This document shows positions 3,810-20,790 of a stretch of 41,222 bases of DNA, in pieces. The translations under genes and the position numbers were made by a program. Location of the stretch: positions 1 through 41,222 of the forward strand of contig CAJFNF010000015.1 of NCBI GenBank assembly GCA_904394215.1, written 5' to 3'. Every line of letters starts with the position of its first letter. Position 1 is the stretch's first letter. The DNA is from an uncultured Faecalibacterium sp. Lineage in GTDB: Bacteria > Bacillota > Clostridia > Oscillospirales > Ruminococcaceae. The notes beneath the pieces were generated by a model that worked only from the letters and a program-made list of their open reading frames with translations, had not been told where the DNA came from and did not search any database.

Positions 3810-4016
3810 TTATTTCTTTTTGGCTGTGGTCCGCTTTTTGGCTGCGGGCTTGTCCAGACTGGCGTAGGGGTCCTTCCAGCCTTTGGGCCGTTCATCTGCG
3901 CCGATGTGAATGTTCCAGGCGTCCACTGCGTATTTGCGGGCGTCCCGGCCATATTTCTTGACAGCGCCTTTCTCAACCTTGCTGATCAGGGCTTCATTCC
4001 AATTTCTTTGTGCCAT
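3810..4016 (-). CDS. Small basic phage protein (68 aa), partner of the first ART gene
   Basis: I do not recognise a family. The 68-residue protein has an amphipathic N-terminal part (NWNEALISKVEKGAVKKYGR) and ends in a Lys/Arg-rich tail, AAKKRTTAKKK, as expected for a nucleic-acid-binding protein. It starts 12 bases after the upstream ART gene stops, with GAGAGG as ribosome site, so the two are co-transcribed from promoter P2 and end at the 3757-3794 terminator. A comparable Lys-tailed small gene follows the second ART gene, and the two share the DNA around their stop codons. A role as chaperone, regulator or DNA-binding partner is a guess. Confidence 0.6.
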   Translation of the reverse strand: MAQRNWNEALISKVEKGAVKKYGRDARKYAVDAWNIHIGADERPKGWKDPYASLDKPAAKKRTTAKKK

Positions 4017-4028
4017 GCTGTGCCTCTC

Positions 4029-4808
4029 TTACCAGTTGTTCATTCCATAGGTGGCGTCGGTCTTGATGGTGGAGCAGACCGTCGTTGCGCTGCGGTCCAA
4101 TGTGACAACATATTTTTTGGGCTGTAGGCTCCCGTGAGCCAAGATTGCGTTATACCCGTGGGCGGCGGCTATGACTGAATAACAGACTTCGCTTTCTCCA
4201 CCGTACCCATTCTTTGTGTCCCAGCACAAATAATCGTAGGCTTTGGGATGCGAGGTCTTGAAATCGTGAACCAGATTAGCCAATTCATCCTTGGTGACGG
4301 TTTTGGCTTTCTTGTTGAGGAAGCTCTTAATCTGGATATCTCCGAATTCGGCAGACTTACTGGCACTCTGCGCGGCCCAATAGGTCCCGCTGCCATAGAT
4401 CCCGTAGGAGCTGTACATGGTGGCTCCGTTCAGGTACTGTTTGGTGCAATCCATACCCTTGATGCTCGAACCGTCGGCGGCGTATCCGTCGTGGTCGGCG
4501 TGGTACAGATCAACAGCTCCGGCTGCCGCCTTCGCGGCATCATAGGCTGCAGAATCGAGAATCTCGGGCTTTCGCTGTGCCCATCCGAGAGTGTCCAGGT
4601 ACCGCTGAACAAAGGAATCAGCTTCATCGCTGCCCACATTCTGAGCAGCAATCCCTTTGAAGGCGGTTATTGCATCGTCGTCAGACATCTTCAAAATCGC
4701 TGAGGGATCGGCTTTAATCTGTGCCACAAGCGCCTGCGCTGGTGTCATCGCCGATGCTGCGGTCTTCATCCCGTGCGACCCGCCAATACTTCCGCCTCTG
4801 CCACCCAT
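4029..4808 (-). CDS. Putative ADP-ribosyltransferase-fold protein, PARP-like motifs
   Basis: The 259-aa product starts with MGGRGGSIGGSHGM, nearly the same as the second ART-like gene nearby. Residues 20-95 are helical. The C-terminal part looks like the PARP/Tpt1-type (H-Y-x) ADP-ribosyltransferase fold: LYHAD with His103, then GIYGSGTYWA with Tyr143 and SKSAEFGD, which parallel the NAD-binding histidine and the G.G.Y(F/W)A...SKS block of PARPs. KYVVTLDRSATTV forms a plausible late strand. No third catalytic residue can be fixed by eye. It could be an injected or intracellular effector that modifies host proteins or nucleic acids, or a degenerate structural relative. It is driven by promoter P2 and the ribosome site GAGGGGG lies 7 nt before the ATG. 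Confidence 0.55.
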   Translation of the reverse strand: MGGRGGSIGGSHGMKTAASAMTPAQALVAQIKADPSAILKMSDDDAITAFKGIAAQNVGSDEADSFVQRYLDTLGWAQRKPEILDSAAYDAAKAAAGAVDLYHADHDGYAADGSSIKGMDCTKQYLNGATMYSSYGIYGSGTYWAAQSASKSAEFGDIQIKSFLNKKAKTVTKDELANLVHDFKTSHPKAYDYLCWDTKNGYGGESEVCYSVIAAAHGYNAILAHGSLQPKKYVVTLDRSATTVCSTIKTDATYGMNNW

Positions 4809-9084: not shown

Positions 9085-9307
9085 GGCAAACGGAATAAAC
9101 GAAACGAACGATTTTTTCTATATATACCTATACGCGTGTGCCCTCGCGCGCGCATATATGTATGCATATATTTTATTTTATTAAAATTAATTAAGTAGAA
9201 AAAATCTGTTTGTTCTGTTTGTCTGTGCTGAAAACCCGCATCATCACTCGGTTTTCGGGCAAACAGAACGACGAACAGAACGCAAAAATCCGTTTGTTCC
9301 GTTTGTC
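9085..9307 (+). repeat. Duplicated non-coding element, copy A
   Basis: This element is nearly repeated at 20,583-20,790 in the same orientation. Order: AAACGAAACGAACG, a TTTTTTCTATATA arm, alternating purine-pyrimidine DNA (9145-9171), an AT-rich stretch, the mirrored arm TAGAAAAAATCTGTTTGTTC, then 16-mers GTTYGTTCYGTTYGTC at 9208 and 9292. The left and right arms (9097-9126 and 9196-9223) are imperfect inverted repeats. It lies between VapE and VRR-NUC genes and no conserved reading frame crosses it. A replication origin, protein-binding array or structured RNA are possible roles. Confidence 0.85.
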
Positions 9308-9487
9308 TTGCGTTCGTTTTCGTGTTCTGAAAACTCTGGGATTTTCTGTTCGTTCTGTTCGTCCTATGCTGTGTTTTGAAAAGTTTTCTGTTTTTCTGTT
9401 TGGTTCGTTTGTTCTGTTCGTCCTCCGGCAAACGGAGGCAAACAGATTTTCTGTTTGGACAAACGGATTTTTGAAATGTGTTTGTCC
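9308..9487 (+). repeat. Additional 16-mer iteron-like copies beyond copy A
   Basis: The motif GTTYGTTCYGTTYGTC recurs at 9348-9363 and 9407-9422. Looser variants and inverted relatives (CAAACGGAGGCAAACAG near 9428-9444, GACAAACGG at 9458-9466) fill the rest. Together with copy A this gives four exact matches in about 215 bp. I see no gene or terminator here; the stretch separates VapE (stop at 9488) from the element. Confidence 0.75.
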
Positions 9488-15092: not shown

Positions 15093-16229
15093 TTATTCCT
15101 CCTGGTTAAAACCATCTAAGGGGTTGTATTCGGGCCGCGTGTCCGCGGCGTCTGCGAGTTTGGGTGCGCCCGGGTCCCGCTTGACCAGGCCGGCCATGAC
15201 CTGGGCGAAGCGCTTTTTTCCCATCAGCTTTTCGGCTGCTGTCAGGGAAATGGGCTCCCGGGTGTAAAGCATGGCTTCATCGATGCCGTCGGCCTCCATG
15301 GCGCGGAAGGCTGCCTCCTGGTCGGTCCATTTGCGGACGCTGCGGCCCTCGACCAGCTTCCATCCCGGGATCTTGCGTCCGTCGATCATTTGCTGCTGGA
15401 CGTAATTTTCGAGGTCTTTGGCGTACTGCGCCACGCCTTGCAGCCGGTGTAGCCATCTCCCGATTTCCTCATCCGTGAGATCAGGCGGGGCTTCGATCGT
15501 GAATCCGTCCAGGTCGTATTTGTCCTTCCAGGCGCGGCACCGGGGGTAAATCCCGCACCACCGGCACCATTCGCCGGGGTTCCGCTCCCCGCCGCCCTGC
15601 CAGGCAAGTTCCGCGGCGGGCTTGAGGGTCCCGTTAGCCCACCCGAGAAGGTCGGCCATCGGCATCTCTGTCGTCTCTGGCTCGCTCTGAATGCGGGGCT
15701 GCACAATGCTCATGCGGACGGTTTCGATGGTGTCGGTCACGCGGAACAGGTCGTAAGCGCCCAGGGCGTAATACATGAGCTGGGGGTTCTGCTGAACGCT
15801 GACCGGTACGCCTTTGCCGTATTTGAAGTCCACGATGTGTAAAATCCCGTCTCCGATCAGTAAGCAATCGCAGGTTCCAAACCCGCCGGGCACCCATTTG
15901 CCGGTGTCCACCCTCTGTTCAATGAAAACGGAGGGTTCGTGCTCAAAGCCGAGCCACAGGTCGTGGATAAAATCCCTGTAAACCATGGCCGCCTTGACCA
16001 TTTCTTCCGGGTATCCGTCGGTGGGAACCATGGTCCCGCTGTCCCCCAGGCGCCATGCGGTGATCGAAGCCCGCAGAATTTGCTCGCACAGCGCGTGGGC
16101 CTCGGTGCCCTCGGTCATGTATTGGTTGGCTTTCTCGGGGAGGTCTTCCGTCAACCGAACCGAAGGCGGGCAATGCAGCCATCGGTTGGCGCTGCTGGCG
16201 CTCAGCAGGGCGTGCTCAAGCGGGGGCAT
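15093..16229 (-). CDS. DUF2800 family RecB/Cas4-like nuclease
   Basis: The 378-aa product is a PD-(D/E)xK nuclease of the DUF2800 family, found with DUF2815 and PolA in phages and probably acting as an exonuclease in recombination or replication. The N-terminus LSASSANRWLHCPPSVRL and EGTEAHALCEQIL match the family. The catalytic core is GTCDCLLIGDGILHIVDFKYG with the Asp and Lys. A cysteine cluster, GEWCRWCGIYPRCRA (around 245-260), may bind an Fe-S cluster as in Cas4/AddB. The ATG at 16229 is preceded by GGAGG and overlaps the upstream gene by 14 bases. A longer upstream frame is a shadow of that gene. Confidence 0.85.
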   Translation of the reverse strand: MPPLEHALLSASSANRWLHCPPSVRLTEDLPEKANQYMTEGTEAHALCEQILRASITAWRLGDSGTMVPTDGYPEEMVKAAMVYRDFIHDLWLGFEHEPSVFIEQRVDTGKWVPGGFGTCDCLLIGDGILHIVDFKYGKGVPVSVQQNPQLMYYALGAYDLFRVTDTIETVRMSIVQPRIQSEPETTEMPMADLLGWANGTLKPAAELAWQGGGERNPGEWCRWCGIYPRCRAWKDKYDLDGFTIEAPPDLTDEEIGRWLHRLQGVAQYAKDLENYVQQQMIDGRKIPGWKLVEGRSVRKWTDQEAAFRAMEADGIDEAMLYTREPISLTAAEKLMGKKRFAQVMAGLVKRDPGAPKLADAADTRPEYNPLDGFNQEE

Positions 16230-16644
16230 TGTCGTTCGCCTCCATGAGTTTACTGAGCTGCTGATACACTTCTGTGTAGCTCTCAGCCGGTAGCCTACTA
16301 AGCATCCGAGCACCGTGATCCTTCAGGATCTTCTGAACCTCTGCGCCCCGGTTGGCTGCTACAAGCTGGCGGCTCAGCGCCTGGATCTGGCTGAACTCAA
16401 CGGTGGGCCCCTGGGCTGCCGCCGTGGCTTCCTGGGGAGCGGGCTCTGTCACCGGCTCGGGCTCGGGCTCTGCTGCCGGTTCGGGCTCAGGCTCTGCCTC
16501 CGGTTCCGCGGGGGCTTGCGGGCGCTGGCGGATGTACTCCACCTCGGTCGTTGCCTCGGGCCCGATGGAGACGGCGGAGATCCGGCTCATCAGGTCGGTC
16601 AATTCCTCCGCGCTGTTGCCGGTGATCGTTAGTTTGAATTCCAT
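16216..16644 (-). CDS. Conserved phage early protein with Glu-Pro repeats (142 aa)
   Basis: The N-terminal 30 residues (MEFKLTITGNSAEELTDLMS) form a beta-helix unit. Residues 47-72 are an acidic, disordered Glu-Pro-Ala linker of repeated EPEP units. The C-terminal 45 residues (QIQALSRQLV, VQKILKDHGARMLSRLP) resemble a small helical domain that is common at the end of Firmicutes phage early proteins, with unknown function. It is preceded by the leader GAGAGGTAGCAGAT shared with other early genes here and by the 830-bp pentamer array. Position directly before the nuclease/SSB/polymerase run suggests a recombination or replication accessory role. Confidence 0.65.
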   Translation of the reverse strand: MEFKLTITGNSAEELTDLMSRISAVSIGPEATTEVEYIRQRPQAPAEPEAEPEPEPAAEPEPEPVTEPAPQEATAAAQGPTVEFSQIQALSRQLVAANRGAEVQKILKDHGARMLSRLPAESYTEVYQQLSKLMEANDNAPA

Positions 16645-16671
16645 ATCTGCTACCTCTCTTTCAAAAATTTC

Positions 16672-17505
16672 CTCGCCTTGCCTGCCATGCCGTAGCTAGC
16701 CACGGCGTGCCTCGCCTCGCCTTGCATGGCCTCGCCCCGCCTCACCTTGCCTGCCGTGCCAGACCCATCCGAACCTTGAACCACCATGCCTTACCGGGCC
16801 TGCCTTGCCTAGCCTTACCCTGCCTGCGCCGCCATGCCTTGCCCTTCCGGGCCGGGCCTTGCCATGCCATTCCTGCCGTACCCAGCCATGGCACGCCTTG
16901 CTGTGCCATGCCCAGCCTCGCCTGCGTCGCCATACCTCGGCTTACCTCGCCGTTCCACAGCTTACCTAGCCTTGCCCTGCCATTCCTGCCGTGCCAATCC
17001 TTGCCGTGCCAATCCTGGCCCCGCCTTTACTCGCCATACCTTGCCTGCCATACCACGCCGCACCTTGCCTTGCCAATCTGTGCCATGGCCCGCCTTGCCT
17101 GCCACGCCAGACCAAGCCCAGCCTGACCGTGCCTTGCCTGCCTTACCGGGCCGTTCCACGCCTGTCCGTGCCTTACCTTACCCCGCCATTCCTGCCGGGC
17201 CACGCCTTACCCTTGCGGGCCTAGCCTTGCCGTGCCTGCCTCACCCCACCTTGCCGAGGCCTACCCCACCGTGCCTTGCCTGCCGGGCCTCGCGCCGCCG
17301 TACCAATCCTAGCCACGCCATTCCATGCCTGCCTTGCCTTGCCTCCCTTGTCATGCCTTGCCATGCCTTGCCTGCCAATCCTCGCCTTACCTGTCCTAGC
17401 CTAGCCTGCCTCACCCTGCCTCGCCATGCCTGCCGGGCCCTGCCGCGACTCGCCTAGTCACGCCGATCCAACCCATGCCGGGCCTTACCTTGCCTGCCGC
17501 GCTGT
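16672..17505 (-). repeat. Non-coding GGCNN pentamer array
   Basis: Over about 830 bp the minus (transcribed) strand is built of GGCNN pentamers, with a GG nearly every 5 nt, sometimes every 4. Examples are GGCAAGGCAGGCATGGC-type runs. The two free positions vary, so it is not a simple tandem repeat, yet the period holds throughout. Every open frame across it gives the same five-residue Gly-x-Ala-Arg/Trp-Gln pattern and is interrupted, so it is not coding. It sits in the early transcript between the 226-aa gene and the Glu-Pro protein gene. The dense GG tracts could form two-tier G-quadruplexes in RNA or the displaced strand. Confidence 0.85.
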
Positions 17506-18199: not shown

Positions 18200-18221
18200 A
18201 TCTGTTACCTCTCTTTCACTT

Positions 18222-18269
18222 TGTGACGTTTGTGACGTTTATGACGTTTATGACGTTTGCATGACGTTT
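18222..18269. repeat. Five 9-bp TGACGTTTR repeats
   Basis: TGACGTTT followed by G or A occurs five times, spaced 9, 9, 9 and 11 nt. The array lies between the stop codon of the 110-aa gene (which overlaps the last copy) and the ribosome site of the 226-aa gene. It could be an iteron-like protein site or a translational operator in the mRNA leader. Confidence 0.85.
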
Positions 18270-19759: not shown

Positions 19760-19868
19760 GTTGCTATTTCTCAACCGCACCTGCATTGTATCACTCAGGT
19801 TGCGAAATGTCAACAAAAAAGTAGAGAAAACTCAACTTTTTTCTCACGCGATATTGATTTTTCGCAAC
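19760..19868. promoter_or_regulatory. Four 16-bp operators between cro and the repressor gene
   Basis: Sites at 19760-19775, 19799-19814, 19821-19836 and 19853-19868 fit GTTGMGAAATNKCAAC or its complement with few mismatches. The second overlaps the -35 of the leftward promoter, the fourth overlaps the -35 of the repressor promoter, and the first lies just downstream of the leftward start point. This is the arrangement of a lambda-like switch; the recognising proteins are presumably the adjacent CI-like and Cro-like products. Confidence 0.7.
19785..19813 (-). promoter_or_regulatory. Leftward early (lytic) promoter
   Basis: On the minus strand TTGACA (19813-19808) and TACAAT (19790-19785) are separated by exactly 17 nt. 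It points into the Cro-like gene and the whole early operon. An operator overlaps its -35. Confidence 0.85.
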
Positions 19869-20582: not shown

Positions 20583-20790
20583 GGCGAACGCTCCAAACGA
20601 AACGAACGCATTTTTCTATATAGCCTACGCGTATGTATACGCCTCGCGCGTATGTATATAATGCTGTTTTAACTCTATATAGAAAAATCTGTTTGTTCTG
20701 TTTGTCTGGGGCGAAAAGCCGCACCACGGCTCAATTTTAGGGCAAACGCAAGGGCAAACGGAACGCTAAAATCCGTTTGTTCCGTTTGTC
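20583..20790 (+). repeat. Duplicated non-coding element, copy B
   Basis: This is the second copy of the element at 9,085-9,307, in the same orientation. Shared order: AAACGAAACGAACG and TTTTTCTATATA (20595-20622), two alternating purine-pyrimidine tracts (20626-20642, 20645-20660), the mirrored arm TATATAGAAAAA (20676-20687), then exact 16-mers GTTYGTTCYGTTYGTC at 20691-20706 and 20775-20790. It lies between the repressor stop and the integrase. Inner sequence has diverged while arms and 16-mers are kept. Confidence 0.85.

Follow-up and report, generated by a model that had tools for sequence, protein, structure and literature searches.

The 226-residue protein and the adjoining array of GG-punctuated pentamers described here most probably form a VIPR system of a phage or prophage, in which the protein serves as Vipr and the array supplies its guide RNAs (vrRNAs). 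We assign this reading a probability of roughly 94%. VIPR was described in a 2026 preprint (April 2026) as a phage RAMP protein together with vrRNAs of 9-16 YNNGG repeats, wherein the NN pairs recognize DNA as NNxNNxNN and the skipped base is mostly a wobble base (PMC13142463). DNA targeting by relatives of the system examined here has been published, experiments having been carried out on SUSP1 and P. fulva, and the authors propose that VIPR is older than CRISPR (PMC13142463). Searches by name (vrRNA, Vipr) or by description returned no other publication on VIPR among their best matches. The locus is very probably a further example of VIPR rather than a new kind of system. It resides in a 41,222-base stretch of DNA, hereafter the window, that constitutes an entire contig (C15) of a 2.4 Mb source genome assembled in 88 contigs. 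The positions of its features are collected in Table 1.

Table 1. Features of the putative VIPR locus and its surroundings, in window coordinates.
Feature	Position	Strand	Remarks
vipr gene (putative), 226 aa	17519..18199	(-)	RAMP-like predicted fold, phrog_4652; flanks array
vrRNA array (putative)	16670..17498 (both ends approximate)	(-)	GGY/NN pentamers, GG periodicity
142-aa frame	16216..16644	(-)	flanks array
Guide unit 1 (putative)	17431..17494	(-)	first in array; 12 complete NN, then terminal GGCA
Guide unit 10 (putative)	17046..17099	(-)	AA GG AT AC TT AA AA GC GT AT; GGCA-GGC on either side
Guide unit 16 (putative)	16752..16800	(-)	CC AA AT GG AA TC TG CT AC
Guide unit 17 (putative)	16683..16751	(-)	longest unit, 13 NN
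Open frame over array, 207 aa	16834..17457	(+)	
Candidate early promoter, sigma-70-like	19785..19813	(-)	TTGACA-17-TACAAT, 11/12; reads towards vipr and array
9-nt repeats, 5.3 copies	18220..18269		gap between vipr and 110-aa frame, just upstream of vipr
Related 9-nt repeats	9205..9401		first cluster
Related 9-nt repeats	20688..20789		second cluster

The periodicity of the array is evident on the minus strand, where 161 non-overlapping GG dinucleotides occur between positions 16666 and 17510, and where for 90 of these the next GG lies exactly 5 nt on. Specifically, autocorrelation of GG positions gives 115 coincidences at lag 5 compared to 37.4 ± 5.4 in 500 dinucleotide-preserving shuffles (z 14.2). 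Similarly, lags 10 and 15 give 105 and 87 compared to about 37 ± 5 in the shuffles (z 12.4 and 9.4), and the counts fall below those of the shuffles at lags 6-8 and 11-13. A first-pass annotation of this DNA had noted a 5-nt GG period on the transcribed strand, with occasional 4-nt spacing, that extends for about 830 bp, and the data bear out all three observations. Its description of the repeat unit as GGCNN is correct with regard to the GG and its spacing, but not with regard to the third position. Among 114 five-step pentamers, this position is C in 66%, T in 20%, A in 13% and G in 1%, with positions 4 and 5 mixed, and the unit is therefore GGY-NN. In total, there are about 165 repeats, including those that have lost their GG, and GGCA-GGY 4-nt steps set off about 18 units. 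The window contains 17 4-nt steps in all, 13 of which read GGCA-GGC and three of which read GGCA-GGA. The array had been judged to be non-coding, and we agree: TAA and TGA recur on its minus strand in GGTAA and GGTGA pentamers, which makes coding on this strand unlikely, and the 207-aa frame on the opposite strand is presumably a by-product of the periodicity. No Rfam family matches anywhere in the window at gathering thresholds.

Long runs of regularly spaced GG dinucleotides had initially suggested two-tier G-quadruplexes, formed in chains by the RNA or the displaced strand, which could regulate transcription of the early operon or its replication. Four or more GGNNN repeats do fit the minimal two-tier form, and 36 segments of the array hold five successive GG at 5-nt spacing. 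However, conservation extends to the position-3 pyrimidine and to the 4-nt GGCA-GGY steps, neither of which is of use to a quadruplex, and a RAMP protein constantly accompanies the array. Moreover, the predicted ordinary fold of the array RNA is no more stable than those of 20 shuffled sequences (z -0.55, from a fold model that does not include quadruplexes). We consider quadruplex formation to be a highly improbable explanation for the array.

The protein encoded beside the array matches the family phrog_4652 (8e-25). The corresponding protein of phage Z31 (locus L014) matches the same family (2.3e-96) and is 96.4% identical to a phiSUSP1 protein, and profile comparison of the window protein (A1) with the Z31 protein by hhalign yields a probability of 97.8% across the C-terminal 69 residues. 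We take the phiSUSP1 protein to be the vipr product of the published work because GGT/NN blocks adjoin it in L014. Judged by sequence, membership in this common family argues that the 226-aa protein is a homolog of SUSP1 Vipr. The C-terminal region carries the sequence GGxxCGIGEWRPEKDG..G, a candidate for the glycine-rich G-loop of Vipr proteins, and residues G199, G200, G204, G206, G214 and G217 are invariant among nine sequences. As a separate observation, record GU169904.1, titled Staphylococcus phage SA1, contains a Felixounavirus-type vipr gene (91679-92263, 97.9% identity), and is possibly a mixed or mislabelled record.

An AlphaFold2 model of the 226-aa protein, built from a nine-sequence alignment, has a pLDDT of 76.7 and a pTM of 0.72. 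When this model was compared to the PDB using Foldseek, the best 50 of 584 matches (E up to 10) were all chains of CRISPR effector complexes of types III, IV, VII and gRAMP, with a best E of 5e-5. We take these chains to be RAMP subunits, and the model thus predicts a RAMP (RRM-core) fold for the protein. Among these best 50 of 584 matches, TM-scores by query range from 0.37 to 0.48, with one of 0.27, which weighs against the VIPR reading. Two modelled helices (residues 38-48 and 62-69), with local pLDDT values of about 56-82, form a candidate thumb region. The first-pass annotation had also raised the possibility that the 5-bp phase, half a helical turn, presents two faces of DNA to a coating protein. 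This proposal fares poorly given a protein modelled as a CRISPR-type RAMP and an array that is always found on the sense strand of the gene. Rather, the array probably acts as RNA and is probably bound by the adjoining protein, as had likewise been envisaged.

Array and protein are consistently linked. When the array DNA was compared to 50,697 phage records by distant blastn, 27 records matched, all of them from Mycobacterium phages. The protein, searched by tblastn, matched 36 records (27 Mycobacterium, 5 Gordonia, 2 Salmonella, 1 Shigella and 1 cyanophage), and the 27 Mycobacterium accessions, representing 17 phage names, are identical in the two lists. A larger set of 81 relatives was compiled from 80 loci kept of 331 confirmed in IMG/VR, plus one from genome contigs, and 74 of the 81 are distinct over the first 540 nt of vipr. 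A GG-chain detector finds at least 15 chained GG near vipr in 64 of these relatives, always on the vipr sense strand. No chains were found nearby on the opposite strand in any of the 81, and three chains occur elsewhere. The 17 relatives that fall under the threshold of 15 chained GG count against the VIPR reading, and a laxer parse recovers guide units in 75 of 82 loci, the window included. GG-periodic stretches lie beside vipr in all seven loci that were inspected (Donkeykong, Pipp, ODay, Cy-LDV1, Z31, L009 and L002). The arrays of relatives keep the period while their variable positions differ. The earlier view that the period is maintained and is not the product of repeat expansion also holds. 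Finally, among 199 host-related genomes, the Vipr protein is found in that of the window and in none of the other 198, as expected for a mobile element.

Most relatives also encode a second protein. A phrog_15946-type partner is present in 79 of the 81 relatives, placed after vipr in nearly all of them, and each of the four partner proteins scanned belongs to phrog_15946. An accessory vap gene is typical of VIPR, and the partner is a candidate for such a gene. It is absent from the window, from L017 and from L053, the last of which is a contig that stops inside vipr. L017 is the closest relative of the window, and the two Vipr proteins are 77% identical. Two other relatives yielded additional observations. 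In Donkeykong (L010), gene 48 (3968-4354) is annotated as a hypothetical protein and overlies a GGY/NN array, and it is probably not a protein. In Z31 (L014, 4718-5178), GGT/NN blocks, three found by expression and a fourth by eye, occupy the gap past vipr and its neighbor, an arrangement that agrees with the description of SUSP1.

The 4-nt steps divide the arrays into units, many of which are of guide length. Among 446 such steps in the relatives, 356 carry GGCA and 308 have GGC next. Of 508 intervals between steps, drawn from 67 loci, 277 are 8-15 repeats long with a peak at 10-12, and a geometric distribution describes the intervals very poorly (chi-square 222, p 7e-47). A second group of 163 intervals is only 1-4 repeats long, falls outside the guide model and counts against the VIPR reading. 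These intervals, from the arrays near vipr in L016-L096, are too short for guides and may reflect guide overlap or spurious steps. The 19 intervals in the window are, in order, 1, 13, 5, 7, 6, 3, 10, 9, 9, 11, 8, 11, 12, 12, 10, 9, 5, 10 and 14 repeats. If the repeat that ends in GGCA is counted, 12 of these 19 intervals and 255 of the 508 in relatives lie within the published range of 9-16 repeats.

Unit 10 is the sole cassette common to the window and L017, where it is preserved NN for NN with one GGY letter changed. The next-best common runs are 4 NN long, a length that shuffled sequences reach and sometimes exceed (5 NN). Because this shared unit has GGCA-GGC at both ends, the 4-nt step bounds the guide. 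Similarly, L087 and L089, L050, L056 and L058, and L020 and L070 have units of 9-21 NN in common amid other units that differ, suggesting turnover of guides or their transfer as cassettes. No structured 3′ tail is present between units of the window array, which is a further point against the VIPR reading. Such tails have been shown for type II, and other array architectures have been described (PMC13142463), such that the lack of a tail is not decisive. Staggered arrays have also been depicted (fig. S18 of PMC13142463) and may correspond to the head-to-tail arrangement of the window.

These characteristics might alternatively indicate a degenerate VIPR system whose function has been lost. This would be in keeping with the missing partner protein, with the 17 of 150 steps that span ten nucleotides because one GG is lost, and with the majority of units that have no clear target. 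Yet the vipr frame is intact and aligns end to end with those of relatives, and ten-nucleotide steps are no rarer in the relatives (590 of 3653). Furthermore, every NN of unit 10 has been kept in L017 despite the changed GGY letter. We therefore view loss of function as unlikely and retain the interpretation of the locus as a VIPR system.

The 1-nt skip rule could be examined with guides from the relatives by pooling 332 distinct units that contain 8 NN or more and searching for exact NN runs in another locus. At skip 1, 9-NN runs are found for three of the 332 units compared to a shuffled mean of 0.085, and none of 200 shuffles reaches three. No 9-NN runs are observed at skips 0, 2, 4 or 5, and skip 3 was excluded because arrays match themselves at this spacing. 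Runs of 10 NN are found for two units and in none of 200 shuffles. By contrast with these longer runs, those of 8 NN are not significant (three of 332 units vs a shuffled mean of 1.13 and a maximum of 5), which counts against the VIPR reading. A first pooled count of 33 matches at 8 NN, compared to 0-1 in shuffles, was discarded in favor of these distinct-unit tests. It overstated the signal because a single guide matches many homologous vipr genes.

The three units with 9-NN matches, from L020, L032 and L039, all start right after GGCA-GG. The first unit of L020 finds its match in vipr genes from other phages, at GxxT(L/A)EQIVNIIN (five checked), and the L032 unit matches vipr genes at EDMVKIGMG (nine loci, three checked), in both instances in frame and with the wobble base skipped. 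The L039 unit matches a 671-aa frame at GKVAELALGY, which Pfam assigns to family A DNA polymerase. At 7 NN, the vipr gene of the same locus is not among the targets of the L020 or L032 units. Given that all loci compared contain vipr, the pooled test is biased towards vipr targets. The fit of these few guides lends the 1-nt skip rule small, independent support, at the sequence level, from a different group of phages.

These matches are also informative with regard to the possibility that the array is a binding platform or sponge, wherein a Vipr filament on the RNA protects or sequesters without targeting DNA. A long periodic RNA and a RAMP protein could make such a filament, and most window units have no demonstrable target. 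In contrast, this scheme does not account for NN positions that vary, for punctuation at guide length, or for the in-frame matches, at least 9 NN long and at skip 1 only, to the polymerase and vipr genes of rivals. In addition, DNA targeting by relatives has been published (PMC13142463). A platform or sponge without DNA targeting seems to us extremely improbable, and the array is better regarded as a set of VIPR guides.

The window's own guides were assessed using the 13 units that reach 7 NN or more, which excludes the shorter units 2, 3, 4, 15 and 18. The sequences searched were 60 terminase-flanking stretches, the 81 relatives and the window, and the terminase stretches surround 36 of 41 strong matches (E < 1e-25), with the window's own among the other five. 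For 12 of the 13 units no convincing target was found in these sequences, as their best skip-1 scores are within the maxima of six shuffles, and unit 16 exceeds the shuffled maximum by one letter. Skip 1 is not favored for the window units, since units 1 and 8 score 19 and 18 at skip 2 vs 18 and 15 at skip 1. Both this result and the shortage of convincing targets count against the VIPR reading. Unit 17 gave nothing above shuffled background in the same three sets, and unit 10 has no match at 10 NN in IMG/VR. Several candidate matches were rejected. At 8 NN, unit 10 matches 53 stretches that encode mixed proteins by eye, with at most two of the four remaining letters matching, unit 1 matches 23 stretches (at most four of eight), and unit 5 matches five (at most one of two). 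With 9 NN and up to two mismatches, unit 1 has two matches in 31 genus genomes vs three in the control.

When read by the 1-nt skip rule, unit 16 spells P-(K/N)-(I/M)-G-(K/N)-S-(C/W)-L-T, a spelling shared with the Walker A motif of AAA_25 helicases. Allowing for up to one mismatch, the unit is matched at five places in four of 396 host-family genomes, and the reversed control at none. All five places spell PKIGKSWL, four of them inside frames 242-389 codons long and the fifth inside one of 17 codons, and all three that were scanned are AAA_25 proteins. Its first 8 NN occur in 57 IMG/VR stretches at 59 places, of which 56 spell PK(I/M)GKSWL. Among these 56 places, 53 lie within frames 300 codons or longer, and all nine frames scanned are AAA_25 proteins, four of them fused to a primase domain. 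The ninth NN (AC) is not fully matched at any of the 59 IMG/VR places or the five host-family places, and IMG/VR contains no exact copy of the complete 9-NN pattern. In frame, the pattern permits a stop or P(K/N)(I/M)G(K/N)S(C/W)L and nothing else, and what lies outside this built-in spelling is the joint occurrence of K, K and W and the common AAA_25 family. Unit 16 was chosen after a 16/18 match to a P-loop in L025 had been seen, and part of the evidence for it is accordingly post hoc. Given that choice, the general frequency of P-loops and the partly predetermined spelling, we regard the targeting of AAA_25 Walker A codons by unit 16 as no more than suggestive.

The surroundings of the array are those of a phage replication region. 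The first-pass annotation had placed it beside the 226-aa gene and recombination and replication genes, and this is confirmed by genes downstream on the same strand, which encode an exonuclease (DUF2800/PD-(D/E)XK), a single-strand binding protein of the Enc34 type, a family A polymerase, a VapE-like primase/helicase and an SNF2 helicase. The candidate early promoter is one of two promoter-like sites between 16500 and 20600, where 1.5 are expected from shuffles. No Cas family was identified among ten neighboring proteins scanned, and the window's tandem-repeat list contains no CRISPR repeat-spacer array. The same list also includes a 9-nt repeat, TTTGTGACG, whose copies upstream of vipr are possible regulator-binding sites. 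The related repeats TCTGTTTGT, TCCGTTTGT and TTCTGTTCG occur in two separate clusters of lower GC and look like shared regulatory sites.

We hypothesize that the array is transcribed as part of the early operon and gives rise to a set of vrRNAs, each carrying about 8-15 pentamers, with a 5′ start just past a GGCA-GGY step and cleavage at or near that step. Vipr subunits would line up on each vrRNA such that GGY is held and NN is exposed, and we would guess that one subunit occupies each pentamer. The exposed NN pairs would then read double-stranded DNA as NNxNNxNN, usually passing over the wobble base of codons, and binding would repress the target gene of a competing phage. The steps of RNA processing, RNP formation, DNA binding and repression are modelled here on the published system (PMC13142463).

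More tentatively, the window phage and L017 may represent a branch of VIPR that lacks the partner protein and uses head-to-tail guides cut or phased by GGCA-GGY, with unit 16 serving as a broad-range guide against the AAA_25 Walker A motif. We consider this extended proposal possible but rather doubtful. With the wobble base skipped, a single Walker A guide could recognize many unrelated rivals by their protein motif. An AAA_25 replication module is not among the window phage genes scanned, which include the VapE-type primase/helicase. If the proposal is true, then wobble-blind guides directed against conserved motifs would be phage weapons against whole protein families. The locus also adds a long, cleanly punctuated array to VIPR. 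Guides have a period of 5 and targets a period of 3, and thus no guide can simply duplicate its target sequence. This mismatch sharpens the question of how new guides arise.

The closest described counterpart is the type II VIPR of Escherichia phage SUSP1 (PMC13142463), which likewise is phage-encoded, carries GGY/NN repeats on the strand of the gene with 9-16 repeats per guide, and has a protein of phrog_4652. Its 1-nt skip rule fits a few guides of the window's relatives. SUSP1 has four guide RNAs of about 100 nt with a 3′ tail, plus a vap1 gene (PMC13142463), whereas the window has about 18 head-to-tail units with a 4-nt GGCA-GGY step, and lacks both tails and the usual partner of its relatives. 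Mycobacterium phages (27 records, e.g. Donkeykong) and the Gordonia phages Pipp and ODay encode Vipr homologs with 35% and 37% identity, and, as in the window, the strand of the gene carries a GGCNN array broken by GGCAGGC steps. Unlike the window, Donkeykong carries its array before vipr, and the two phages examined, Donkeykong and ODay, encode the phrog_15946 partner.

RAMP subunits of CRISPR types III, IV and VII resemble the window Vipr in predicted fold, and like VIPR they function as guide-RNA-dependent effectors. The window Vipr differs from these systems in being a single small protein, with no cas genes among the neighbors scanned. VIPR is further distinguished from the CRISPR RAMP systems by a 5-nt rather than a 6-nt register and by a noncontiguous code (PMC13142463).
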